In this document: piece after piece, positions 5,740 through 24,390 of the stretch | How positions within the stretch are numbered: the stretch's first letter is position 1 | Layout: each line of letters begins with the position of its first letter | DNA from: Chloroflexota bacterium | Lineage (GTDB): Bacteria > Chloroflexota > Anaerolineae > Anaerolineales > Villigracilaceae | Assembly (NCBI GenBank): GCA_021795965.1 | Contig: JAJYOU010000018.1 | Span: 1 to 38,904 of the forward strand | Length of the DNA stretch: 38,904 nucleotides | Direction of reading: 5' to 3' | Notes under the pieces: model-generated | Database searches by the model: none | Told to the model about the DNA's origin: nothing | The model's input: only the letters and a program-made list of their open reading frames with translations | Translations under genes and position numbers: made by a program

Positions 5740-5866
5740 ATTTTTATGATTCTTTTTAATCTCCTGTTTTGATGATGTGATCTTTTTTGGAAGCAACTGC
5801 ATTATCCTTCTTTTTGAGTCCGGCATCTTTTCGCGGAAAAATGCGTATACTAAGCAGGTTCAAAGG

Positions 5867-7051
5867 ATGTCTGTGAGTAAATATTTCTGGATGAAAAATT
5901 TCGCTTTCAGCCTGGTGCTTGCGCTGCTGCTGAGCTCGTGTTCAGGCGGGTCAAACGCCATGAGCGCCCTGCCGCAGCCTTACGCCGGCGTCTCTGCCCG
6001 GGCGGATCACACCTGCGCGCAGACGGCGGTCGGTGCGATCAAATGCTGGGGCGGGAACGCGAACGGTGAACTGGGGAACGGCACGACAACCGGCAGCAAC
6101 GTGCCGGTGAATGTCAACGGACTTTCGAGCGGCATCCGCAGCTTTTCAACTGGTGTTGGGCATGCCTGTGCCCTGAATGCGGGCGGCGGCGTGCTGTGCT
6201 GGGGACTGAACGACTCCGGGCAGTTGGGCGACGGCTCGCAGACCAACCGGGCTGCCCCGGTCAATGCGAGCGCCTTGAGCGGAATTTCGCGCGGCATCAC
6301 TGCCGGGCGGGCTCATTCCTGCGCGCTGACGGCGCCGGGCGGCGTGGTTTGCTGGGGAGCGGGCGAGGCTGGTCAGCTTGGTAACGGACAGGATAAGAGC
6401 TCGCTCCAGCCTGTCGCGGTCAGCGGTCTTTCCGCCGCGGTGGCAGGTCTCTCGGCTGGCTGGGATTTCACCTGCGCGCTGACCGCTGCCGGCGGGGTGC
6501 TTTGCTGGGGCGACAACCGCTACGGTCAGCTTGGGAACGGCAGCACCACATCCAGCTCGAGCCCGGTGACCGTTTCCGGTCTCACGCCCGGGACGAGAGC
6601 CATCTCGGCAGGCGTGGATCACGCCTGCGCGCTGACCTCAGTGGGTGGAGTGGTCTGCTGGGGACGCAACCAGGATGGGCAGCTTGGCGACGGCACGACA
6701 ACGGACAGCGCAACCCCACGACCCGTGAACGGGCTGGGGAGCGGGGTCAAATTCATCAGCGCCGGCGGGGACCTGGACGCTTCCCATACCTGCGCCCTGA
6801 CGATCAGCGGCTCGGTCAAATGCTGGGGAAGCAACCAGTCAGGTCAGCTGGGCAACGGCGGAGGCGCCAACAGCAGTTCGCCGGTGGATGTGAGCGGCTT
6901 GTCGATGGGTGCGAGAGCCATCGCCGCGGGCGGCAGTCACAGCTGCGCCATCAATGCCACGGCGGAGCTGGTTTGCTGGGGGGATAACCGCAGCGGTCAG
7001 CTGGGCAACGGCAGCAGCAGCAACTCTTCCACACCAGTCAGCGTGCGCTAG
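5867..7051 (+). CDS. RCC1-repeat (seven-blade) lipoprotein
   Basis: The product has a lipoprotein signal (hydrophobic stretch ending in LLSSCSGG), so it is predicted to be anchored outside the cytoplasmic membrane. The rest is seven near-perfect RCC1-type repeats of about 50 residues, each with a CA...CWG...GQLG(N/D)G core: a seven-bladed beta-propeller. Each blade has two cysteines at fixed spacing, which suggests one disulfide per blade in an oxidising location. RCC1 propellers are protein-binding scaffolds; the ligand here is unknown. I chose the ATG at 5867; 5891 is an alternative and gives a more typical short signal, while the upstream in-frame ATG at 5777 would put about 35 extra residues before the signal. 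The gene is GC-rich, unlike the AT-rich one before it. It is followed by the DsrE gene with a 97-base gap. Confidence 0.85.
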   Translation: MSVSKYFWMKNFAFSLVLALLLSSCSGGSNAMSALPQPYAGVSARADHTCAQTAVGAIKCWGGNANGELGNGTTTGSNVPVNVNGLSSGIRSFSTGVGHACALNAGGGVLCWGLNDSGQLGDGSQTNRAAPVNASALSGISRGITAGRAHSCALTAPGGVVCWGAGEAGQLGNGQDKSSLQPVAVSGLSAAVAGLSAGWDFTCALTAAGGVLCWGDNRYGQLGNGSTTSSSSPVTVSGLTPGTRAISAGVDHACALTSVGGVVCWGRNQDGQLGDGTTTDSATPRPVNGLGSGVKFISAGGDLDASHTCALTISGSVKCWGSNQSGQLGNGGGANSSSPVDVSGLSMGARAIAAGGSHSCAINATAELVCWGDNRSGQLGNGSSSNSSTPVSVR

Positions 7052-7148
7052 TTTGGGGGGTTTCCGGCAAAGGGATGACCGGCAGGGCTAATGGCGCTGA
7101 TGTTGGGGTAGAATTGCCTGGACGAAAATCACAATAGGAGAAATGAGC

Positions 7149-7514
7149 ATGAGCGAAATTAAAGCCACTGAGTACCTGCTGATCATCAATGATGGCCCTT
7201 ACGGCAACGAGCGTCCATACAACGCGCTGCGCCTGGCGATGAACCTGGGCAAGCATGAGAGCAATCATGTCCGGATCTTTTTGATGGGGGATGGGGTTCA
7301 GTGCGCCAAAAAAGGACAGGATACACCGCAGGGCTATTACAACATCGAGCGCATGTTTACCTCCGTCCTGCGCGCCGGCGAAGTCGCCACCTGAGGGACC
7401 TGCCAGAAGGCTCGAGGTCTCGGGTCAGACGATTTGATGGAAAAAATCCAGGTCGGTTCGATGGAATTATTGACCAGGTGGACGATGGAAGCAGACAAGG
7501 TGATTGTTTTCTAA
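7149..7514 (+). CDS. DsrE-family protein with in-frame UGA (candidate selenoprotein)
   Basis: DsrE-fold proteins are small cytosolic sulfur-transfer or redox proteins. The frame from 7149 gives an N-terminal half with YLLIINDGPYGNERPYNALR, VRIFLMGDGVQCAKKGQ and GYYNIERM, all typical of the family, up to EVAT. A TGA then stands at 7392-7394, and the same frame continues without any shift as GTCQKARGLGSDDLMEKI and ends in EADKVIVF and TAA. Family members usually read CGTC at this place, so the TGA replaces the first cysteine of a CxxC motif (residue 82 of 121). A hairpin follows at once. Translation with selenocysteine gives a full-length protein; otherwise the gene is a nonsense-broken copy. 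I prefer 7149 over 7143 because AGGAG (7136-7140) is then eight bases away. Confidence 0.8.
7395..7426 (+). promoter_or_regulatory. Possible SECIS hairpin after the in-frame UGA
   Basis: Two alternative folds start right after the TGA. In one, GGGACCT pairs with AGGTCTC (7415-7421), topped by GCC/GGC around an AGAA loop. In the other, GACCTG (7397-7402) pairs with CGGGTC (7421-7426), with AGA/TCT inside and a ten-base apical loop containing GGCTCGAGG. The second resembles bacterial SECIS elements better, but the loop starts only about 13 bases after the UGA, which is close. This was judged by eye only. Confidence 0.4.
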
Positions 7515-8413
7515 AATGGGATAATGACGCCGGGTGAGGAGGATTCAGCGCCTTTTCGAAAGCCGGTTAACTGCATTAGACAGACTGGATGCGCGGAAAA
7601 ATTCCCGGTGCCTGGCCCGATCAAATTAAAAACTAATCAAAAATCCCCTTGAATACGACAGGTCCTGGCAATCTCATAAAAGCAAATTGCGTCGTCGAGC
7701 TTTGAAGATTTTTGGGCTGAAGCCCGCGCCTTGACGTTTTATCAGATGGCTGCAAATGCCCTCCAGGATCAGCATTGAGGGGTCAGGGAGCGGGGAAGGG
7801 TTCATTTAACTGATGACGTTTCTGAATTCCCTCAGGCAGCCCCAAAGACATCGCGGCAGGTGGTCGCATCTGATGATCCCGATAACTGCACGGGAAATAA
7901 TGGGGAAGGGCTGGCGACCGTTCGACCAACGTTGTTTGGTTGTGAGCGGCGATTTAGCACAGGTTGGAATGAGGGGAAGGGTGAGTTTTGGAATATTGGG
8001 TAAGGCAAGGTGCTTATATTTGCACGAGAAACAAAAGGGAATTCGCCCAGAATACACCGGTTTCTCGCACTACTCGGGCACAAAGCCACTTTTCCGATGT
8101 AAAATATTTTAATCAACCGGTGGAAAGCGGTTCGTGGTTACCCTTTAATTTCCATCGGTTTCGCAAAACCATACGATGTGGTGCATCCCAAACAGGCAGG
8201 GATGAAGTTTGTCCCTGGTCTGATTTAATGCCTTTGTGAACGCGGGCATTTCTGCCTGCGCCAGTACCGCAGGTATAGGTGAAAAACCCGGTGCGATAGT
8301 TGTACGCCGGGATTTGTCCAGTAAGAGCATCTGGAGGATATGCGGGGCTTGCTCGGCAACGGGCAGCCTACCGCGATGGTTGCTCATTGTTTTCTACTCA
8401 AGAAAGTCATATT
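7515..8413. other. 900-bp region without a convincing gene
   Basis: No open frame here has a credible start, ribosome site and protein-like composition. Two overlapping short frames at about 8145-8413, one on each strand, look somewhat protein-like (the minus one contains IAPGFSPIPAVLAQAEMP), so this may be the remnant of a decayed gene beside the acquired genes that follow. No terminator, repeat or RNA gene was recognised. Confidence 0.5.
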
Positions 8414-9646
8414 ATGGAATTCGATTTGAACAGGCTAACTCCTGACGAATTCGAAAAACTGGCTTTTTATTTGCTGGATGATATGGGTTTTAAGAATTTA
8501 GAGTGGAGAAAAGGGGGAGAAGGCGTTTCAGCCACCGATGGAGGGCGAGATTTAGCAGGAAAATATGCAAAAATGGAGCCTGATGATTCTATAGTGATTG
8601 AAAATTGGTGGGTTGAAGTGAAACATCGCTCTGATACACTAAAAAAAGCTACAGTCCAAAGTATCGTTCTCAATGCCACTGGTCGTAAAGAAGTTGACGT
8701 TTTTGCTATTTTTACAAACAATACTATTTCGAATTCGACACTGGATTGGGTCAAAGAATTTCAAGATACCCACGCAAAACCCAGAATAGTTATTTGGCAG
8801 AAACACGATGTTGAACGCATTTTGCGGAAATGTCCTCGAACTGTCGGTGCTTTTTTCCCAGAGTCTTTATCGCTTCCAGAAAAGTTGGAAAGCATACAAG
8901 AAAGGTTTTGGAATAACTTAAGTTATCCAACCATAAATGAAATCGAACACATTTGGGCAAACTTTCATTCCTTAACTTGGGATAGTGCCAAATTGCTACC
9001 TTTGATAGTTGCTGACACAGCGATAGATGGAGTTAATATCAGAAAATGGGGTATGGTAGCAGATGATGAGTTGATAGCAGAAACTTTAATACTTGGGCTT
9101 CTTAACTTTCCATTCTTAGCGATTCGGTATCAAAAACAGGGGCAAAAGTACACTGGCTTACAACAAGGGCTTGAATACTTGCTTCAAATCGCATTACTCC
9201 GCTTGGATTTAGATAAAGTGCTTGACTTGTTAGTTAATATGCATGAATATACAAGCAGCCCAACGCCTTTTCCTCCAGAGTTTAAAAATTTAGTGCTTAA
9301 TCCAATTGTTCACAATATTTACAATACTCTTTTGCGTTCTTGCACTCAAGATTGTGAAAGATTTGGGTCTGATTGGGCAATTAAAAAAGAACAAGGAGAA
9401 TCTTTTTATTTTCACAGATTTTCCAATAATTCGACCAAAGAAGATGACGACACAGAACCATTTGTGATTATCAGCACCAATACTAAAAAGTGTAAAATAG
9501 ATTTAGTCGCAATAGGTATAGATTGCCCTCTCACAGATGATGTAGACGAAAATCAAAACCTGATGGATGAAGCCGTTCTTAAAAAATTCCTCAGCCCTAT
9601 TCAAAGTGTAATAAAAAAGCGTGCCCAAAATATTCAATCATCCTAA
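8414..9646 (+). CDS. PD-(D/E)XK restriction-endonuclease-like protein
   Basis: The N-terminal ~110 residues form an Mrr/type-IV-like nuclease domain: a helical start (LTPDEFEKLAFYLLDDMGF), then DGGRD with Asp46, and WWVEVKHR with Glu68 and Lys70, the metal-binding D...ExK triad. A FAIFTNNTIS strand follows, as in Mrr-type domains. The remaining ~300 residues were not recognised and may recognise DNA or sense infection. The likely role is DNA cleavage in defence. I chose the ATG at 8414 because the catalytic domain starts right there, although no strong ribosome site precedes it; the frame is open further upstream but without protein-like sequence. The gene is strongly AT-rich compared with the housekeeping genes. 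It is the first of three same-strand genes separated by related attC-like blocks. Confidence 0.75.
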   Translation: MEFDLNRLTPDEFEKLAFYLLDDMGFKNLEWRKGGEGVSATDGGRDLAGKYAKMEPDDSIVIENWWVEVKHRSDTLKKATVQSIVLNATGRKEVDVFAIFTNNTISNSTLDWVKEFQDTHAKPRIVIWQKHDVERILRKCPRTVGAFFPESLSLPEKLESIQERFWNNLSYPTINEIEHIWANFHSLTWDSAKLLPLIVADTAIDGVNIRKWGMVADDELIAETLILGLLNFPFLAIRYQKQGQKYTGLQQGLEYLLQIALLRLDLDKVLDLLVNMHEYTSSPTPFPPEFKNLVLNPIVHNIYNTLLRSCTQDCERFGSDWAIKKEQGESFYFHRFSNNSTKEDDDTEPFVIISTNTKKCKIDLVAIGIDCPLTDDVDENQNLMDEAVLKKFLSPIQSVIKKRAQNIQSS

Positions 9647-9715
9647 AACTGCAACCCAACGCCACGTCCTCAGGATATGACCATGTCCTTTCGGGAAAAA
9701 TGATCGTCCCGCGAT

Positions 9716-9847
9716 CTTGATTGGGTGCACCGGACAAGTGCGAGCCGTGCCCGCACTTTCGGGGAAGCAGCTCCAATCGGCGGATTTGGCATCTGGTGGC
9801 TTTTTCTGCCAAGTCCCGCCCTTACCGGTAACACCTGCCAGTAGGTG
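9716..9847 (+). repeat. attC-like block A (after nuclease gene)
   Basis: The gap 9647-9872 is GC-rich between two AT-rich genes. Its right end (9811-9847) reads AAGTCCCGCCCTTACCGGTA followed by a GTAGGTG-type end, and aligns with the right ends of blocks B and C. The left part begins with GGGTGCACCGGAC. It is the most diverged of the three copies and lacks clean RYYYAAC/GTTRRRY ends. Confidence 0.5.
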
Positions 9848-9872
9848 ACTAAGTTCGGACCATAAAACTAAA

Positions 9873-10679
9873 ATGGCATCTATTCTAGCTTTTGACGATA
9901 CAGTTCTTCATACTATTTGCAATGTTTTGGCTGATACCGCCGAAGGATTAACAGGTAGTGAAATTGGACAACTCTTAAGAGAGAGTAATATTGGCGACCC
10001 ATTACCAGGAGTTACAAAAAGGGATAGGCTGTTTGAAGCATTAAATCAGAAACAGAAGCAAGACAGGTGTGCAAACAATGTTATAGCTTTTATTCACAAA
10101 GCCATGAGTCCTGTCCGCTATACACAAAAGCTTCACGTTTTTGAGAATCGCCGCTTTGAATTGAACAAGGTTTTAGCGTTTTCAGGATTAGTTTTGGGTG
10201 ACAATGGAAAGCTTCGAGAAATAACTACAGCCCAAACGCTATCAGAAGCACAAGAACGAGCGGGCAGGTTATACAAACAACTGCTCGACAGAAATACTCA
10301 TAGCGATATTTTGTTATTTTGTCGAGCAGAGTTGCTTCAAGATAATTATTTTCATGCCGTTTTTGAAGCAACAAAAAGTATTGCAGACAAAATTCGTGAG
10401 AAGTCTGGATTATCAAGCGATGGCGGAAAATTGGTAGATGAAGCATTTGGTGGCAAATTACCGCTACTTGCTTTTAATACCTTGCGAACCGAAACTGAGA
10501 GAAGTGAGCATGCTGGTTTCATGAATTTGCTAAAAGGCTTATTCGGCACTTTTAGAAATACGTTGGCACACGTTCCAAAAATCAAATGGAACATAAACGA
10601 GCAAGACGCAATAGATATGCTTACCTTTGCATCTTTTATACATCGCAAACTTGATAGTTGTGTTCGTACAAGAAAGTAG
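9873..10679 (+). CDS. HEPN-type protein, TIGR02391/Ymh-like, putative defence RNase
   Basis: The 268-residue protein has a helical N-terminal half and a C-terminal domain with TLSEAQERAGRLYKQL, a long central helix pair, and FRNTLAHVP near the end. Arg228 and His233 give the R-x4-H motif of HEPN domains, many of which are RNases in toxin-antitoxin and abortive-infection systems. The overall pattern resembles the TIGR02391 (Ymh/Abi-like) family. It is AT-rich like the nuclease gene before it and has no good ribosome site. It lies between attC-like blocks A and B on the same strand as its neighbours, as expected for a gene cassette. No partner antitoxin was seen next to it. Confidence 0.7.
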   Translation: MASILAFDDTVLHTICNVLADTAEGLTGSEIGQLLRESNIGDPLPGVTKRDRLFEALNQKQKQDRCANNVIAFIHKAMSPVRYTQKLHVFENRRFELNKVLAFSGLVLGDNGKLREITTAQTLSEAQERAGRLYKQLLDRNTHSDILLFCRAELLQDNYFHAVFEATKSIADKIREKSGLSSDGGKLVDEAFGGKLPLLAFNTLRTETERSEHAGFMNLLKGLFGTFRNTLAHVPKIKWNINEQDAIDMLTFASFIHRKLDSCVRTRK

Positions 10680-16842: not shown

Positions 16843-17892
16843 TCAGGTTGAAACCGGGGTCAGTTTTCTGACCAGCTGAACTGCGAAACCGGTGAATGTC
16901 ACCAGCCAGGCAATTAATGCGAGGTAGATGAAATAACGCGGGATCTGCAAAAGGAAATCAAGCTGCAAGGCTTTGGCAAGCTGGAAGGTGCAGACCGTAT
17001 ACATGCCCATGGGGAAGACCAGGCTCCAATAGACCGGGTGGTAGGTGAGCGGGTAGTGCTTGTAAATGTGGCGCCAGGCGCCCAGGATTATGAGGAGCGG
17101 AATCCACCAGGTGCCGACAGCCCAAAAGAAAAGGGTGAAGCCTTTGAGGAAGGGGATCAGATCGGGCAGAAAAGGTGCACTGCCTTTGAGCAGCAGATTT
17201 GCCCCCGCCAGGGTGGTGATGGCAACTGCGCCCATATTGATCCAGTAGGGAGGCCCCATCTCATCGGCGCTGATTTTGAAAAACATGAAGCGATAGAGGA
17301 TGAGGGAAGTGATCAGGATGTAGAACATGCAGCCAAGCAGATAAAAGCCGAGCATGGCAAATGTGAACATTTCCTGCCAGGGTGCGAAACTGGAAACCAG
17401 GAACATACCCAGGACAACCACAGATTGTGTGGAAACGACAAACAGCATCCAGGCACCATTGATGCCCATGTCGAGGGTTGGTTTCTCTTCCTTGATGGTC
17501 AGGACGCTGAAGAGGGCATAAATCAGAATCAACCAGAGCAGCAAAGCGAGCAGCCAGAGAGCCATCCCCAGGACCTGGTTGGAAGCCAGCATCATAAACT
17601 GGACGCCCAGCACGTTCGTCCCGGCGACGAGGGTCAGGAAACCCACGCCAAGACGGTGATTGGAAAAATCAGCCAGGAGGCGTGCTGAATGGCGGAAAAT
17701 CCGGACGAGGGTGAAAAGCCAGAGAACCACGTAGAAAAACTGGTTGAGGTAGAACAACGGGTAAGCCAGGAAATCCATGGCCTGGAGATGGCAGGCAATC
17801 GAGATGATGCCTGTTGCCATGACGAGGGCAAAATAAGCGGGGAATAAATCACGGATGCCATCCTGGATGGCGCTGGCGGCTCTGCTCCACAT
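16843..17892 (-). CDS. TDT/SLAC1-family anion transporter linked to nar
   Basis: About 349 residues with ten predicted membrane helices. The opening FPAYFALVMATGIISIA is the typical start of the tellurite-resistance/dicarboxylate transporter (TDT) family, to which TehA, Mae1 and the plant SLAC1 nitrate/chloride channel belong. The gene starts directly after the narI stop and is probably co-transcribed. I prefer the ATG at 17892, eight bases after an AGGTGA, over the GTG at 17901 that touches the narI stop codon. No NarK-type nitrate/nitrite porter occurs in the cluster, so this protein is a candidate for nitrate uptake or nitrite export; that is inference from position and family. Confidence 0.8.
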   Translation of the reverse strand: MWSRAASAIQDGIRDLFPAYFALVMATGIISIACHLQAMDFLAYPLFYLNQFFYVVLWLFTLVRIFRHSARLLADFSNHRLGVGFLTLVAGTNVLGVQFMMLASNQVLGMALWLLALLLWLILIYALFSVLTIKEEKPTLDMGINGAWMLFVVSTQSVVVLGMFLVSSFAPWQEMFTFAMLGFYLLGCMFYILITSLILYRFMFFKISADEMGPPYWINMGAVAITTLAGANLLLKGSAPFLPDLIPFLKGFTLFFWAVGTWWIPLLIILGAWRHIYKHYPLTYHPVYWSLVFPMGMYTVCTFQLAKALQLDFLLQIPRYFIYLALIAWLVTFTGFAVQLVRKLTPVST

Positions 17893-17901
17893 GGAATTCA
17901 C

Positions 17902-18576
17902 CTAGCTGGCTTTTCGACGAGCCCAAATCACCAACTGGTAGCGTCGCCAGAGGTACGTAAGGGGGAAATTGATGATATGCACCAGGCGACTGTAAGGAAC
18001 CAGAGCAAACAGCAGGAAACCATTCAGGAAATGCAGCTTGGGTATCCACGGCAGGGCGGTGACGTACTTCGTCTGCGGCTGGAAGACGGAGAGCGAGCCG
18101 ACCCAGGGTGTAACGGTATGAATAAACCAGGTTGCACCCCAACGGTAGGAAAAGGCAATGGTCATCCCAAGGAAGACCTGCGTAAAGAGCAGAACCAGGA
18201 CGATCCAATCCATGGGTGTGGTGATGGCGCGAATTCTGCTGGATGACAGCCGGCGGTAAAGCAATGCAGCTGCCCCAACCAGCGCCATGATGCCCATGAC
18301 TTTTCCGGCAAGCTCCGCCAGGTAAAGAGTTTCGGGGGTGCTGTGGAGGGCGGCCATCACCCTGGGGAGGGTAAAGCCTCCCAGGTGGATCAGGAGGGTT
18401 GGGATGATGCCATAATGCCAGAGCGTGGACCCCCAAAACTGCAAATCAGTTTCGAGGAATTGCGAAGACAGGCTGGTTAAGGAAAACTGGTCGGTGCGGT
18501 AACGGTAAATAATGCCCACCACGCCCAGGATAACCGCCAGATAGGGAAAAACGATAAAGAGGATCGTCTCAAGCAT
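17902..18576 (-). CDS. narI: Respiratory nitrate reductase gamma subunit (cytochrome b)
   Basis: NarI is the membrane diheme cytochrome b that takes electrons from quinol on the outer side and passes them to NarH. The 224-residue protein has five hydrophobic helices. Candidate heme ligands are in WHYGIIPTLLIHLGG and in LHFLNGFLLFALVPYSRLVH, which match the spacing of the histidine pairs in E. coli NarI. Its start overlaps the end of narJ by eight bases. Confidence 0.93.
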   Translation of the reverse strand: MLETILFIVFPYLAVILGVVGIIYRYRTDQFSLTSLSSQFLETDLQFWGSTLWHYGIIPTLLIHLGGFTLPRVMAALHSTPETLYLAELAGKVMGIMALVGAAALLYRRLSSSRIRAITTPMDWIVLVLLFTQVFLGMTIAFSYRWGATWFIHTVTPWVGSLSVFQPQTKYVTALPWIPKLHFLNGFLLFALVPYSRLVHIINFPLTYLWRRYQLVIWARRKAS

Positions 18577-19123
18577 GTCTCATCTCCTCCTGAGGGATCT
18601 GAACCAGAACCAGATGCAGTGCTGAAAGCAGGTCAAAGTACGGATTTTCGGAATGCTGAGTGAAAGTGTGGAGCATTTTCTCCAGGGCTGGAACCAGCCC
18701 TTCGGCGAGCAGCGCCGAGCTAAAATCATCTTCCCGTTTGGCGCTGTCCAACCCCAGGAAACGCAGGATGACGGAGAGGTGATCGGGCAGCTCCAGCCCG
18801 GCAGAATAGCCGGAGAGATGATAAGCTTCATTTAATTGAGCCATAAAGGCACCGCGTTTATAGCTTTCGCCGAAAAGCTGGTAGCCGATGTATGGATAAC
18901 AGACTGGCTGCAAATCAAAGGTGATGGTGTACAGCTCCTGGATTTGTTCCAGCGAAAGCTTTTCCAGGCGGGCGGAGAAGCTTTCCAGCGAGCTGGCGGC
19001 GGCGGGATGAAGCGCCTGGATTTGCGCGAGGCATTCGAGAGCTTGGTGCGGGGTGTCAGGCGTGGGGTAGGCTAAAAGATCGGCGAAAAGGTTGGACAAA
19101 ACTCCAATGGAATCCTGGGGCAT
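18569..19123 (-). CDS. narJ: Nitrate reductase molybdenum cofactor assembly chaperone
   Basis: NarJ is a cytosolic TorD-like chaperone that holds NarGH until cofactor insertion and membrane docking. The 184-residue helical protein shows the family pattern: NLFADLLAYPTPDT at the start, then LQELYTITFDL-like (here IQELYTITFDLQPVCYPYIGYQLFGE), a GELPDHL-like motif (GLELPDHLSVILRFLG), and a C-terminal helix. It is placed between narH and narI, separated from narH by three bases, as in other nar operons. Confidence 0.93.
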   Translation of the reverse strand: MPQDSIGVLSNLFADLLAYPTPDTPHQALECLAQIQALHPAAASSLESFSARLEKLSLEQIQELYTITFDLQPVCYPYIGYQLFGESYKRGAFMAQLNEAYHLSGYSAGLELPDHLSVILRFLGLDSAKREDDFSSALLAEGLVPALEKMLHTFTQHSENPYFDLLSALHLVLVQIPQEEMRHA

Positions 19124-19126
19124 GGC

Positions 19127-20629
19127 TCACAACCCCCGGTGTGGAGCCTGGCGGCGACCAAACCCGGTCTCGGCTTTGTGCTGTTGAGGATCCTGCACCT
19201 GCTCGATGGCGCTTTCGCGTGAGGAGGGCGGGATGACGAAGCGCTGCTGGTGGGTGGGCAGCGAGGTCAGGCGGTAAATGGCTTCGGCATCCCCGGCGCT
19301 CATGCCGGCTTTGGTAAGGGCAGCCGCCGCCTCCTCGTTGGAAACATCTCCCACGGTTTCGGCGCGTTTATACAGACGAACGGCGATCATCCTCTGGTAA
19401 GCCTTGATCACCGGCGCGTCGTTGCCTGCTGAAAGCATGTGCGACATGAAGCGGACGGGCACGCGGGCGCTTTCGAGCGAACTGAAGAGATCGCTTTCCG
19501 TCCGTTGAGCGCCGCTTTCCTGGGTGGATGAAATCACTGGCAGGAGCGGCGGGACATAAAACAGCATGGGCAAGGTGCGAAATTCAGGGTGCAAGGGCAG
19601 GGCGAGCTCCCATTCCTTGACGTAGCGGTAAACCGGCGATTGCTGGGCTGCTTCGATCACACCGGCGGGGATGCCGCTCTCTTCCGCTGCGGCGATCACC
19701 TGCGGGTCGAAGGGGTCGAGGATCATTTCGCGCTGTCGCTGGACCAACTGTTCATCCGGCACTTCGACGGCGGTTTCAACCTGGTCAGCATCGTAGAGTA
19801 GAACACCCAGGTAGCGAATACGTCCGACACAGGAATGGAAGCAAGCCGGGGCTTGACCGGTCTCCAGCCGCGGGTAGCAGAGAATGCATTTTTCCGATTT
19901 TCCGGTGGACCAGTTGTAGTAAGTCTTCTTGTATGGGCAGCCTGAAACGCACATGCGCCAGCCGCGGCATTTATCCTGATTGACCAGGACGATGCCATCT
20001 TCGGCGCGCTTGTAGATTGCACCGGAGGGACAGGCAGCCACACAAGCCGCATTCAGGCAGTGATTGCAGATACGCGGCACGTAGAAGTAGAAAAGCTGCT
20101 CGATGGAAAAGAGCCGTCGTTTTTCTTCCTCGCTCATATTCTTCAAGAGAGGATCGTTGACGGCGTAGATGTTTGAACCGCCCAGGTCATCATCCCAATT
20201 GGGACCGGTTTCGATGTCAATCGGTTTGCCATCAATGCGGGAGATTGCCCGGGCGATGGGCTGGTCATCTCCAAGCGGAGAGTTGATCAAATCCTCATAT
20301 TTGTAGGTCCACGGCTCATAATATTCACTCATCGTGGGCATGGACGGGTTGGAGAACAAGTTGCCCAAAGCCTGCAGGCGGTTTTGAAGTTTTAAATTCA
20401 GCCTGGGTTCTTTCCCGGCATTTTTCAGTTCCCAGCCGCCGTTGTATTTTTCCTGGTCTTCCCAGAGGGTGGGAAAACCAACGCCCGGCTTGGTTTCGAC
20501 ATTGTTCCACCACATGTACTCAGCGCCCTGGCGATCAGTCCAGATATTTTTACAGGCAAGGCTGCAAGTGTGACAGCCGATGCACTTATCCAGGTGGAAA
20601 ACCATTGAGACTTGCGAACGGATTTTCAT
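19127..20629 (-). CDS. narH: Respiratory nitrate reductase beta subunit (iron-sulfur)
   Basis: NarH carries four iron-sulfur clusters that link NarI to NarG at the cytoplasmic face. The 500-residue protein has the first cysteine group CIGCHTCSLAC (Cys16, 19, 22, 26), a second group CNHCLNAACVAACP, a third group CRGWRMCVSGCPYKK with a tryptophan at the position that marks the [3Fe-4S] site, and a fourth CILCYPRLETGQAPAC. Length and order match E. coli NarH (about 510). AGGATG lies before the ATG. The C-terminus is slightly divergent and polar. Confidence 0.96.
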   Translation of the reverse strand: MKIRSQVSMVFHLDKCIGCHTCSLACKNIWTDRQGAEYMWWNNVETKPGVGFPTLWEDQEKYNGGWELKNAGKEPRLNLKLQNRLQALGNLFSNPSMPTMSEYYEPWTYKYEDLINSPLGDDQPIARAISRIDGKPIDIETGPNWDDDLGGSNIYAVNDPLLKNMSEEEKRRLFSIEQLFYFYVPRICNHCLNAACVAACPSGAIYKRAEDGIVLVNQDKCRGWRMCVSGCPYKKTYYNWSTGKSEKCILCYPRLETGQAPACFHSCVGRIRYLGVLLYDADQVETAVEVPDEQLVQRQREMILDPFDPQVIAAAEESGIPAGVIEAAQQSPVYRYVKEWELALPLHPEFRTLPMLFYVPPLLPVISSTQESGAQRTESDLFSSLESARVPVRFMSHMLSAGNDAPVIKAYQRMIAVRLYKRAETVGDVSNEEAAAALTKAGMSAGDAEAIYRLTSLPTHQQRFVIPPSSRESAIEQVQDPQQHKAETGFGRRQAPHRGL

Positions 20630-20666
20630 AATTTCATCCTGTTTTGATCAAGGTCTGCCAGTTTGG

Positions 20667-23600
20667 CTAAAATTGCGGAGCGCCGGGCAGTTTGCGGACC
20701 AAGATAAAGGTGTCACGGTTTTCGCCGGTGGGACCCCAATAGTTGAAGGCATAGGTAAACTGAGCATAGCCGCCCATCATCATGGAAGGTTTAAGGTGGA
20801 TGCGCGTGGGGCTGTTGTGACCTCCGGCGCGTTGGTTGCCGCGAATGGGCGATTTGGGCACGCTGATTGTCCGTTCCGGGGCGTGGTAGAGGTAGCACAA
20901 GCCGGAAGGGATGCGCGCACTGACAACGGCGCGAGTAATGATGACTCCGTGGTCATTGTAGGCTTCCACCCAGTCATTGTCCTGCACGTCGAGCGCCCTG
21001 GCATCCTGCTCGCTGAGCCAGAGCGGCTCAATGCCGCGTGAAAGGGTTAACATGCGGTCATTATCGTAGTAGGTGGAGTGAATGTGCCATTTGGCATGCG
21101 GAGTCAGGTAATTCAACTGGAGGGTTTTGCCTTCACGGATGCTTTTATCCAGGTCGCCAAAGTCGAGAGGGTCAGGGCGGGGTTTGAAAGTGGGCAGGTG
21201 CTCGCCGTGCGCGAGGAAGCCATCATGATCGAGGTAGAGGTGCTGACGCCCGGTGAGCGTGCGCCAGGGGATCAGGCGTTCCACATTCAGGGTGTAAGCC
21301 GAGTAAGCGCGTCCATTTGTGACAATGCCGGTCCAGAAGGGGCTGTTGAGCACGCGTCGCGGCTGCTGCACGAGGTCATTGAAAGTCACACGCGAATCGC
21401 GGGTGGGTTCTGCCAGGTCGGTCAGGTTCAGCCCGGTGTGTTCTTCTTCGGCTTTGAAAGCGCGGTAAGCCACTTCGCCGTTGGTTTCGGGAGCCAGGTG
21501 GAGGACGATATTGGCAGCGTCGCGGGCAAACTCCAGCGAGGGGTAACTCTCTCCGCCCCAGGAGACGGTGGGACGGCTTTCCAAAAGCTGTTGGTACAAA
21601 TCGTCCACCTGCCATGTAACGCCATGCATGCTCATCCCGGTTTTGCGAAGCGATGGACCCAGGGAGATGAAGCGCTGACCCAACTTGACATAATCGCGCT
21701 CGGTGATGACAAAATTGGGCATGGTCACGCCGGGGATGGGTTCACACTCGCCGCGCGCCCAATCGCGGATGTGCTCCTGCGCCATTTCAGCAGGCGTATC
21801 ATGCAGGAGGGGCTGAGCCACCAGGTCGGGGACAGGATCGGGCAGGTGAGTTTTCGCCAGGTCGCTGACTTTTGCGGCTAATATTTTGAAAATATCCCAG
21901 TCTGTTTTCGATTCCCAGGAGGGCGGAACTGCTGCCGAGAGCGGGTGGATATAGGAGTGCATATCGGTGGTGTTCAGATCGTCTTTTTCGTACCAAGTGG
22001 CGGTGGGCAGGACAATATCGGAATAAAGCGCCGATGTGTCCATGCGGAAGTTAAGATCCACCACCAGGTCGAGCTTGCCTTCGGGAGCATTTTCGCGCCA
22101 GTTGACTTCGTGGAAGGTATTTTTGTCCACTTCCTCAGAAATGATCTGATTGTGAGTGCCCAAATAGTGCTTGAAGAAATATTCCTGACCCTTGGCGCTG
22201 GCGCTGAGCGCATTGCCGCGCCAGATGAACCAGATGCGCGGCCAGTTTTCCGGCGCGTCAGGGTCCTGCACGGCAAATTTCAGTTGGCCGGATTTGAGCT
22301 GTTCCACCACCCACTGCCGAATCCCGGCTTCGGTTTTGGCGCCGGCAAGCCCGGCTTGTTTGACCAGTTCGAGCGAGCTGCGGTCAAACTGCGGGTAAAA
22401 TGGCAGCCAGCCCATGCGCACCGCGCGGATTTGTGCATCCAGCGTGTGTTCCTGGGTCATGCTGCGGTTGAGTTCACTTTCAGGGCGCGGAACGGGCTGG
22501 GGTGGAGCGAAGGTACGCTCGTAGCGCCACTGGTCGCTGTTGACGTAATGGAAGGAAGGCGAGTTCATCTGTCGCGGTGGTTTTTGCCAGTCTGTGGCAA
22601 AAGACATCGCCGCCCAGGGGACTGCCGGAGCCAGTTTTTCCTGCCCGACGTAATGATCCAAGCCCCCGCCGTTGCGACCGACACAACCGGTGAGCAGCAG
22701 GGTTCCGATGCAGGCGCGGTAAATCAGGTCGTTGTGATACCAGTGATTGACCCCTGAACCGATGATAATTGCGCACCTGCCGCCGGTTTTGGCTGCGGTG
22801 GTGGCCCATTCGCGTGCAAACTGGATGACGGTCTGCCGGTAAATGCCGGTGAAGCGTTCCTGCCAGGCAGGAGAATAAGAGAGGTCGGCGTTATCGTAAT
22901 CGTTGGGGTAATCGCCGTCCAATCCGCGCCCGACGCCGTACTGTGCCATGAGCAGGTCGTAAACCGTGGTAACGGGTACGCGGACGATTGTGCCGGGGTG
23001 ATCGAGGTCGATGGTTTCGATGTAGCGCACCGGGAGACTGCGTTGGAAAGCTTTACCCTCGGCAAATTCGGCAAACGAAACGGTCAGGCGCTCATCCGAG
23101 CCCGCGATGAAACTCAGCTGGGGGCGAATCTCGCTGCCGTCCAGGCCGTCTTTGGGTTCCAGGTTCCACTGACCTTTTTGCTGCTGCCAGCGGAAACCGA
23201 GGCTGCCCTGGGGCATGCGCGGCTGGTCGCTGAGTTCGTCCCAGACCAGGAACTTCCATTGAGCATTTTCCACAGCCTGAGTGCGGGCTACCTGCCCGGC
23301 GCGCAACAAGCGACCGGGCACATAAGCACCATTTGCCTGGTTGAGCACCACCAGGAAGGGCGAGTCGGTGTAGCGGCGCGCATAATCCAGAAAGTAGGGC
23401 GTTGGGTTTTGGTGGTGAAACTCATTCAGGATGACATGGCTGACCGCCATCCAGAAAGCGCCATCCTGCCCGGCATGCACGGGAACCCACCAATCGGCGT
23501 ACTTGGCGACCTGGTTGAAATCGGGCGAAAAGACCACCAACTTGGTTCCATTGTGACGCGCTTCAGCGGCAAAGTGCACGTCTGGAGTGCGCGTCATGCT

Positions 23601-24320
23601 CATGTTGGAGCCGACCGAAGCGATGAATTTAGCGTTGAACCAATCGGCGCTTTCGGCTACATCGGTTTGTTCGCCCCAGACCTCAGGGCTGGCAGGCGGC
23701 AGGTCGCTGTACCAGTCATAAAAACTCATGCTGACGCCGCCCAGCATTTGCAGGAAGCGGTTGCCCGCGGCATAACTGAGCATGGACATGGCAGGGATGG
23801 GTGAAAAACCTGTAATGCGATCTGGCCCATATTTTTTGATGGTGTAAACCGTGGAGGCGGCGATGATTTCCAGGACTTCATCCCAGGAGGAACGGCGGAA
23901 TCCGCCCTTGCCGCGCGCCTGATGGAAGGATTTCCGGGCTGCCGGGTCATCCATGATGCTGGTCCAGGCTTCGACCGGGTCAGAGTACCCGGCTTTGGCT
24001 GCACGCCATAAATCCATCAGTACGCCGCGCAGGTACGGGTACTTGACCCGCAGCGGGCTGTACTGGTACCAGGAGAAGGAAATACCGCGCTGACAGCCGC
24101 GCGGTTCGTAGGGCGGCAAACCGGGCTCCAGGCTGGGATAATCCAAAGCCTGCAGCTCCCAGGTGACGATGCCATCCTTGACGTAAATCATCCAGGAGCA
24201 ACCCCCGGTGCAATTGACTCCATGGGTGCTTCTGACTACTTTGTCATGCTGCCAGCGATTGCGATAAAACTCTTCCCATTGACGGGCTTGCGGGTTAGCG
24301 ATTTCTTGAATCCAACTCAC
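20667..24320 (-). CDS. narG: Respiratory nitrate reductase alpha subunit (molybdopterin)
   Basis: NarG reduces nitrate to nitrite at a bis-MGD molybdenum site facing the cytoplasm. It has [11 protein letters not shown] with the FS0 ligands His33, Cys37, Cys41 and Cys76 (in EPRGCQRG), the molybdenum-ligand Asp202 in [25 protein letters not shown], and the usual DMSO-reductase-family domains to the C-terminal barrel with YNDHGV. There is no Tat signal, so the enzyme is the cytoplasmic type. Length is about 1217 residues (E. coli 1247). I place the start at the GTG at 24320 because a perfect AGGAGG sits five bases before it; the ATG at 24353 has no ribosome site. Confidence 0.95.
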
Positions 24321-24325
24321 AGGTT

Positions 24326-24331
24326 CCTCCT
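24326..24331 (-). promoter_or_regulatory. Shine-Dalgarno site that decides the narG start
   Basis: AGGAGG on the minus strand lies five bases before the GTG at 24320 and inside the reading frame extension from the ATG at 24353. Confidence 0.8.
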
Positions 24332-24390
24332 TGTCTTTGGCACTGGCTTTCATTCAAAAAACAATCAAGTTTCCCGGGAAAAATAGTCGA

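Follow-up and report, generated by a model that had tools for sequence, protein, structure and literature searches.

Does the single in-frame TGA of a small gene in a Chloroflexota genome encode selenocysteine (Sec), or does it mark the end, or the decay, of this gene? The window analyzed here is the entire 38,904-nucleotide stretch of contig JAJYOU010000018.1, in which an ORF on the plus strand, at positions 7149–7514, encodes a protein of 121 amino acids when TGA is translated as Sec (U), and ends with TAA at 7512–7514. The sequence AGGAG (7136–7140, plus strand), recognized by eye as a ribosome-binding site, lies 8 nt 5' of the ATG at 7149. As the first-pass annotation of this DNA had it, the frame is broken only by the TGA at 7392–7394, codon 82, and then runs to the TAA. 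The resulting U-G-T-C motif occupies the CxxC site of a YchN-like protein of the DsrE family, with the second position of UxxC, residue 85, encoded by the Cys codon TGC at 7401–7403. We put at roughly 0.95 the probability that this is a YchN-like DsrE selenoprotein gene in which UGA is read as Sec; the codon and the hairpin that follows it were identified by conservation and covariation, from which we infer the insertion itself. Indeed, the same codon and the same hairpin are common to dozens of related bacteria, so that UGA is almost certainly read as Sec.

With Cys substituted for Sec, the product matches the Pfam DsrE model (PF02635) over residues 9–121 with 73.8 bits (E = 1.7e-20), above the cut-off of 22.7 bits, and family homology therefore extends over both sides of the TGA. 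The AlphaFold model of the product has a pLDDT of 94.4, and its best match in the PDB is E. coli YchN (1jx7; E = 1.4e-11, TM 0.88), also the closest PDB sequence by profile comparison (E = 4.5e-30), with CKTC aligned to UGTC. YchN, the nearest solved relative, thus carries CxxC in the same columns but has Cys where the window product has Sec. The fold is shared with the subunits of DsrEFH and TusBCD (2hy5, 2d1p); unlike these, the product scores far under the TusB, TusC and TusD cut-offs, missing those of all the curated models (31.2 bits for TusD, TIGR03012, against a cut-off of 89.25). No TusB/TusC-like gene was noticed beside the gene in the window, which was inspected without a model search.

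The part of the protein beyond codon 82 is conserved as well. In an alignment of 45 sequences, C85 and G90 are invariant and G83, A88, R89, W111 and A115 nearly so, with invariant residues found both N-terminal and C-terminal to codon 82; in the AlphaFold model, the segment past this codon completes the fold at high confidence. These observations bear on the alternative that UGA is a true stop, with a functional product of 81 residues and the remainder of the ORF untranslated. Because some termination occurs at Sec codons in bacteria, a certain amount of truncated protein is likely to be made, but the invariant and near-invariant residues downstream, and their contribution to the fold, make it very unlikely that the 81-residue fragment is the functional product.

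To assess conservation of the TGA itself, 301 genomes from the order to which the window belongs were searched for the protein; matches turned up in 55 of them, at 65 places. Fifty of these places were typed at the codon-82 column; the other 15 are partial or weak (below about 31 bits, except for one N-terminal fragment). TGA occupies the column in 41 copies from 37 of the 301 genomes, the window copy included, and Cys in nine copies from eight genomes of the same set; one of the TGA copies ends at a contig edge. A wider scan of genome contigs, overlapping with the 301-genome set, yielded at least 559 relatives. Among the best 80, which were kept, 39 have TGA, 35 have TGC or TGT, and six fall outside the typing pattern; none of these six contains a stop, and five have CxxC whereas one (L161) does not. 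The first-pass annotation held that homologues usually have Cys at this place and that U-GTC would be Sec in a CxxC-type motif, and it named relatives with TGA, and Cys/Sec exchange, in this column as checks. All of this is borne out by CKTC in E. coli YchN, the Cys copies in the relatives and the conserved TGA, together with the hairpin described below.

A nonsense mutation, an assembly error or gene decay would also leave an in-frame TGA and make the locus a DsrE pseudogene. Such loss or error does happen in this family: three of the 41 TGA copies (L024, L049, L060) contain extra stops and look decayed or misassembled. In the other 38, however, the TGA at codon 82 is the sole in-frame stop, and the relatives among them have 55–81% identity to the window protein; invariant residues flank the codon on both sides, and compensatory changes preserve the hairpin beyond it. 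We consider a pseudogene highly improbable.

Of the 39 TGA loci among the best 80 relatives, 36 are labeled as Chloroflexota groups (counting Aquidulcis as a member of Chloroflexota), two are from a Firmicutes bin and one is from a Pseudomonadota bin. Sec-DsrE genes with an intact hairpin in Pseudomonadota or Firmicutes bins (L110, L117, L120) could reflect misbinning or gene transfer. In a draw of 400 genomes from the phylum, every TGA copy among the matches listed belonged to the same family as the window, and no stop was seen in 25 homologues of at least 96 bits from outside the order. Copy number varies: G111 (L013/L045), G200 (L041/L048) and G205 (L019/L042) each harbor two intact Sec copies, the second of the two Sec-DsrE copies in G223 (L030/L060) is broken, and G121 (L046/L052) has one Sec and one Cys copy. 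Three other genomes of the window's genus, 98–100% complete, encode SelA and show no match to this DsrE protein; hence, the gene is patchy in its distribution. A weak DsrE paralogue in G175 (22.6 bits, one TGA) was rejected as a Sec candidate because its TGA precedes the start codon.

Beyond the UGA, at 7409–7426 on the plus strand, the transcript can form a bacterial SECIS hairpin that consists of a 6-bp stem (7409–7414/7421–7426) and the loop AGGUCU (7415–7420), and is delineated by pair counts, shuffles, the bSECIS limits and a covariance model. Measured from the UGA, the stem begins at 14 nt and the loop at 20 nt; thus, a conserved element exists where the first-pass annotation saw a hairpin, although not directly behind the codon as stated there. 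Across the 41 TGA copies, the five inner pairs are kept in 203 of 205 cells, compared with a mean of 126.1 (sd 5.5, maximum 141, n = 500) in a null model in which each codon was redrawn 500 times among its synonyms, weighted by usage in these genes. In 13 of the 41, the outermost bases do not pair. The nine Cys copies of the order keep only 0–3 of the five pairs. In the wider contig scan (best 80), all five pairs are present in 36 of the 39 TGA loci and four in the remaining three, and the 35 Cys loci keep 0–4 pairs, with a single locus at four. When both sets are merged into 62 distinct copies, 306 of 310 inner pairs are paired.

By the six-pair count, 93.9% of the cells are paired vs 86.5 in shuffles, 23 cells are changed on both sides vs 9.1, and the covariation score is 0.287 vs 0.155, values that none of the 500 shuffles reach in any of the three cases; sliding the partners by one column lowers pairing to 48–54%. 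Two of the five whole-structure measures, both-side-changed pairs (reached by 62 of 500 shuffles) and further pair types (205 of 500), are not set apart from the shuffles. The top covarying pair, columns 21–32, alternates between C-G (24) and U-A (14), and couples a synonymous change in an Ala codon (GCC/GCT) to GGG/GAG, that is, Gly or Glu, so here RNA pairing constrains the protein.

The limits of bSECIS elements, as given in the review PMC13188914, are a loop of 3–9 nt, a stem of 4–16 bp, a G within the first two loop positions, a UGA-to-loop distance of 16–37 nt and an energy of at most −7.5 kcal/mol. The window hairpin lies within those on geometry and loop sequence (loop 6 nt, stem 6 bp, AGGUCU, 20 nt to the loop). 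Sixty of the 62 distinct copies conform to the stem and G rules, and 51 of the 62 also to the energy limit when the hairpin is cut out; the 6-bp hairpin of the window, cut out alone, has −6.1 kcal/mol, short of −7.5. When the first 6, 9, 12 or 14 nt behind the UGA are masked, the conserved hairpin comes out as the most favorable structure (−8.8 to −9.0 kcal/mol), with an added A-U pair inside the loop. Unmasked, the 51 nt after the UGA favor a different stem (−16.4 kcal/mol), and the fold of a 61-nt segment of the window is not unusually stable (z = −1.18, with 25 of 200 shuffles as good). The free fold differs, yet the ribosome covers the first bases, so the conserved hairpin is compatible with decoding, although the difference calls for caution. 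Because folding of the window alone picks the other stem, the element is missed that way, and it was the comparison of relatives that settled the hairpin; the fold check proposed in the first-pass annotation thus succeeds, far above chance, across the relatives but not on the single sequence.

A covariance model trained on the relatives plus the window copy itself scores 62.4 bits at the window hairpin, against 10.3 bits for the runner-up in the window. Over the own genome, this model finds no clear second copy; the runner-up there (18.4 bits, E = 0.217), which is followed by three weaker hits, was rejected, lying, by eye, antisense to a response-regulator gene. Rfam gave no match in 7340–7520 even at E up to 5, and none at gathering scores around selA.

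The decoding machinery was sought in the same genomes. The own genome (G000, 62% complete) encodes SelA (E = 1.8e-126) and a tRNA-Sec with the anticodon TCA (66 bits); for SelB, this incomplete genome contains only elongation-factor-like matches below the cut-off and, for SelD, no match. The check for sel genes suggested in the first-pass annotation therefore comes out positive for SelA and tRNA-Sec, and in this 62%-complete assembly neither SelB nor SelD turned up. Among the 37 TGA genomes, SelA is present in 36, SelB in 31 and SelD in 35 (both above cut-off), and tRNA-Sec of at least 60 bits in 31, and not one of the 37 lacks all four factors. Among the seven Cys-only genomes, the corresponding counts are five, five, four and four, and two (G037, G273) are without all four. 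Given that SelA is common across the order (250 of 301 genomes), this co-occurrence is consistent with Sec decoding but weakly informative. SelD was detected above cut-off in 39 of the 44 genomes searched, and its own frame holds one TGA in 38 of the 39 (L180–L182 among the places noted), so that in those 38 genomes SelD itself looks like a selenoprotein.

An open frame through TGA does not, by itself, separate Sec from reading of UGA as Trp or Cys through an altered genetic code or by a suppressor tRNA. However, 17 of the 41 TGA copies terminate with TGA (the window copy with TAA), which means that TGA also works as a stop in those genomes, and the SECIS-type hairpin is present along with tRNA-Sec (TCA) and SelA. 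Recoding to a standard amino acid is therefore extremely unlikely, and Sec remains our reading of the codon.

How the Sec and Cys forms are related was examined in a 106-row tree (58 rows with Sec and 48 with Cys, U being written as C) that left out duplicates, rows with extra stops and rows of the order search shorter than 100 residues; the Cys set includes L161, which is without that Cys. In this tree, which is unrooted and built from few columns, one branch parts all Sec rows from all Cys rows, with support of 99/97 and recovery in 100% of 200 bootstrap trees. Since the wider family has Cys, the ancestor likely had Cys as well.

Selenoproteins of this kind are not without precedent. As far as the accessible portions of the sources go, DsrE-like UxxC selenoproteins have been in print since 2005 (PMC1088965, PMC1794560) and are already catalogued (PMC1088965, PMC1794560, PMC9312934), with reports from the Sargasso Sea in 2005, from Desulfovibrio vulgaris in 2006 and, as DsrE 1 and DsrE 2, from GOS in 2008 (PMC1088965, PMC1794560, PMC2398784, PMC9312934, PMC13188914). 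Thus, the first-pass view that Sec in a DsrE-type protein would be notable holds in part, and the window gene belongs, on this partial record, to an existing, little-studied family. By their published descriptions, in the parts consulted, these proteins and the window gene have in common PF02635, Sec as the first residue of UxxC and a bacterial SECIS; the former come from marine metagenomes and a deltaproteobacterium, whereas here we find a clade across one Chloroflexota order. Judged by titles and the openings of abstracts, no DsrE selenoprotein of this order was found in the literature, nor was a pairing of Sec-DsrE with an ArsR-type regulator and a flavoprotein resembling sulfide quinone reductase (SQR) found in the partially accessible literature that was searched. 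What is new, as far as that search reaches, is this member, the clade spanning the order together with its SECIS, and the neighborhood with its link to sulfide oxidation.

This neighborhood was surveyed at 62 Sec loci, 56 with enough upstream and 56 with enough downstream sequence. At 21 of 56 loci, the gene immediately upstream on the same strand belongs to the ArsR family, and at 12 of 56 the gene immediately downstream encodes an SQR-like flavoprotein; an SQR-like gene occurs anywhere in the stretch at 17 of 56, and both neighbors are present at nine loci. Looser counts, at any place or strand, give about 26 loci for ArsR and about 18 for the SQR-like gene. The one regulator that was typed as a representative passes the ArsR/SmtB model and not BigR. 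The one flavoprotein typed matches Pyr_redox_2 and the central domain of flavocytochrome-c sulfide dehydrogenase, and its best NCBIfam match is NF049943, the selenoprotein subtype of type III sulfide quinone reductase, at 239.8 bits; it differs from that subtype in falling below the 525-bit cut-off and in the lack of an in-frame stop among the NF049943 matches listed from 64 genomes (37 TGA, seven Cys-only and 20 without this DsrE). In these 64 genomes, matches at the level of the neighbor gene (215–259 bits, a band picked after viewing the table) occur in 12, all of them TGA genomes. Matches above the cut-off are spread over 16 genomes (eight TGA, six Cys-only and two without DsrE), and so the full type III enzyme appears independent of the Sec form.

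The window copy adjoins neither an ArsR nor an SQR-like gene. It sits between an RCC1-repeat gene directly upstream (5777–7051), with a lipoprotein-like start by eye, and an Mrr-like gene; at 8300–10679, a protein with an Mrr-type restriction endonuclease domain is followed by a Hypoth_Ymh protein, possibly a defense pair. Farther away, the minus strand at 16843–24353 encodes respiratory nitrate reductase alpha, beta and gamma, with delta assigned by position only, and a SLAC1-type anion channel comes after these genes. The sulfide quinone reductase model finds no match in the own genome (62% complete), and we hold the role proposed next less firmly for this reason.

In the mechanism that we envisage, SelB, bound to the hairpin (7409–7426), would bring in the Sec-tRNA-Sec that decodes UGA 7392, and translation would terminate at TAA 7512. 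Together with the Cys three residues later, Sec would make up a selenenyl-sulfide/persulfide site of the UxxC type, carried on the fold of a small sulfur carrier. Most probably, the protein would take up sulfane sulfur (persulfide or polysulfide) made by a sulfide-oxidizing flavoprotein and pass it on or reduce it, and the ArsR-type regulator would control the system in many relatives. Drawing on the family, the fold and gene neighbors that the window copy is without, we lean, by a narrow measure, toward such a role in sulfane-sulfur relay. A selenium-based persulfide relay is suggested by the Sec clade that spans the order and by how often its genes are paired with ArsR and SQR-like genes. 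More tentatively, and with somewhat less confidence than doubt, we propose for Anaerolineales a clade-specific, selenium-dependent persulfide relay. It would comprise a regulator of the ArsR type, a YchN-like carrier with UxxC and an SQR-like flavoprotein, and a single replacement of Cys by Sec would have made the transfer of sulfane sulfur faster; the window copy, which stands alone, might perform the same chemistry from another site in the genome.

Automatic annotation likely truncates this gene and its relatives at the TGA. The use of Sec in the DsrE fold would extend past the marine and deltaproteobacterial cases, as far as the accessible parts of the published reports describe them, and the family offers a clean case of one protein whose Sec form and Cys form part on a single branch. 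It also offers a connection of selenium with sulfide oxidation that can be tested, in an order that is widespread and for the most part uncultured.
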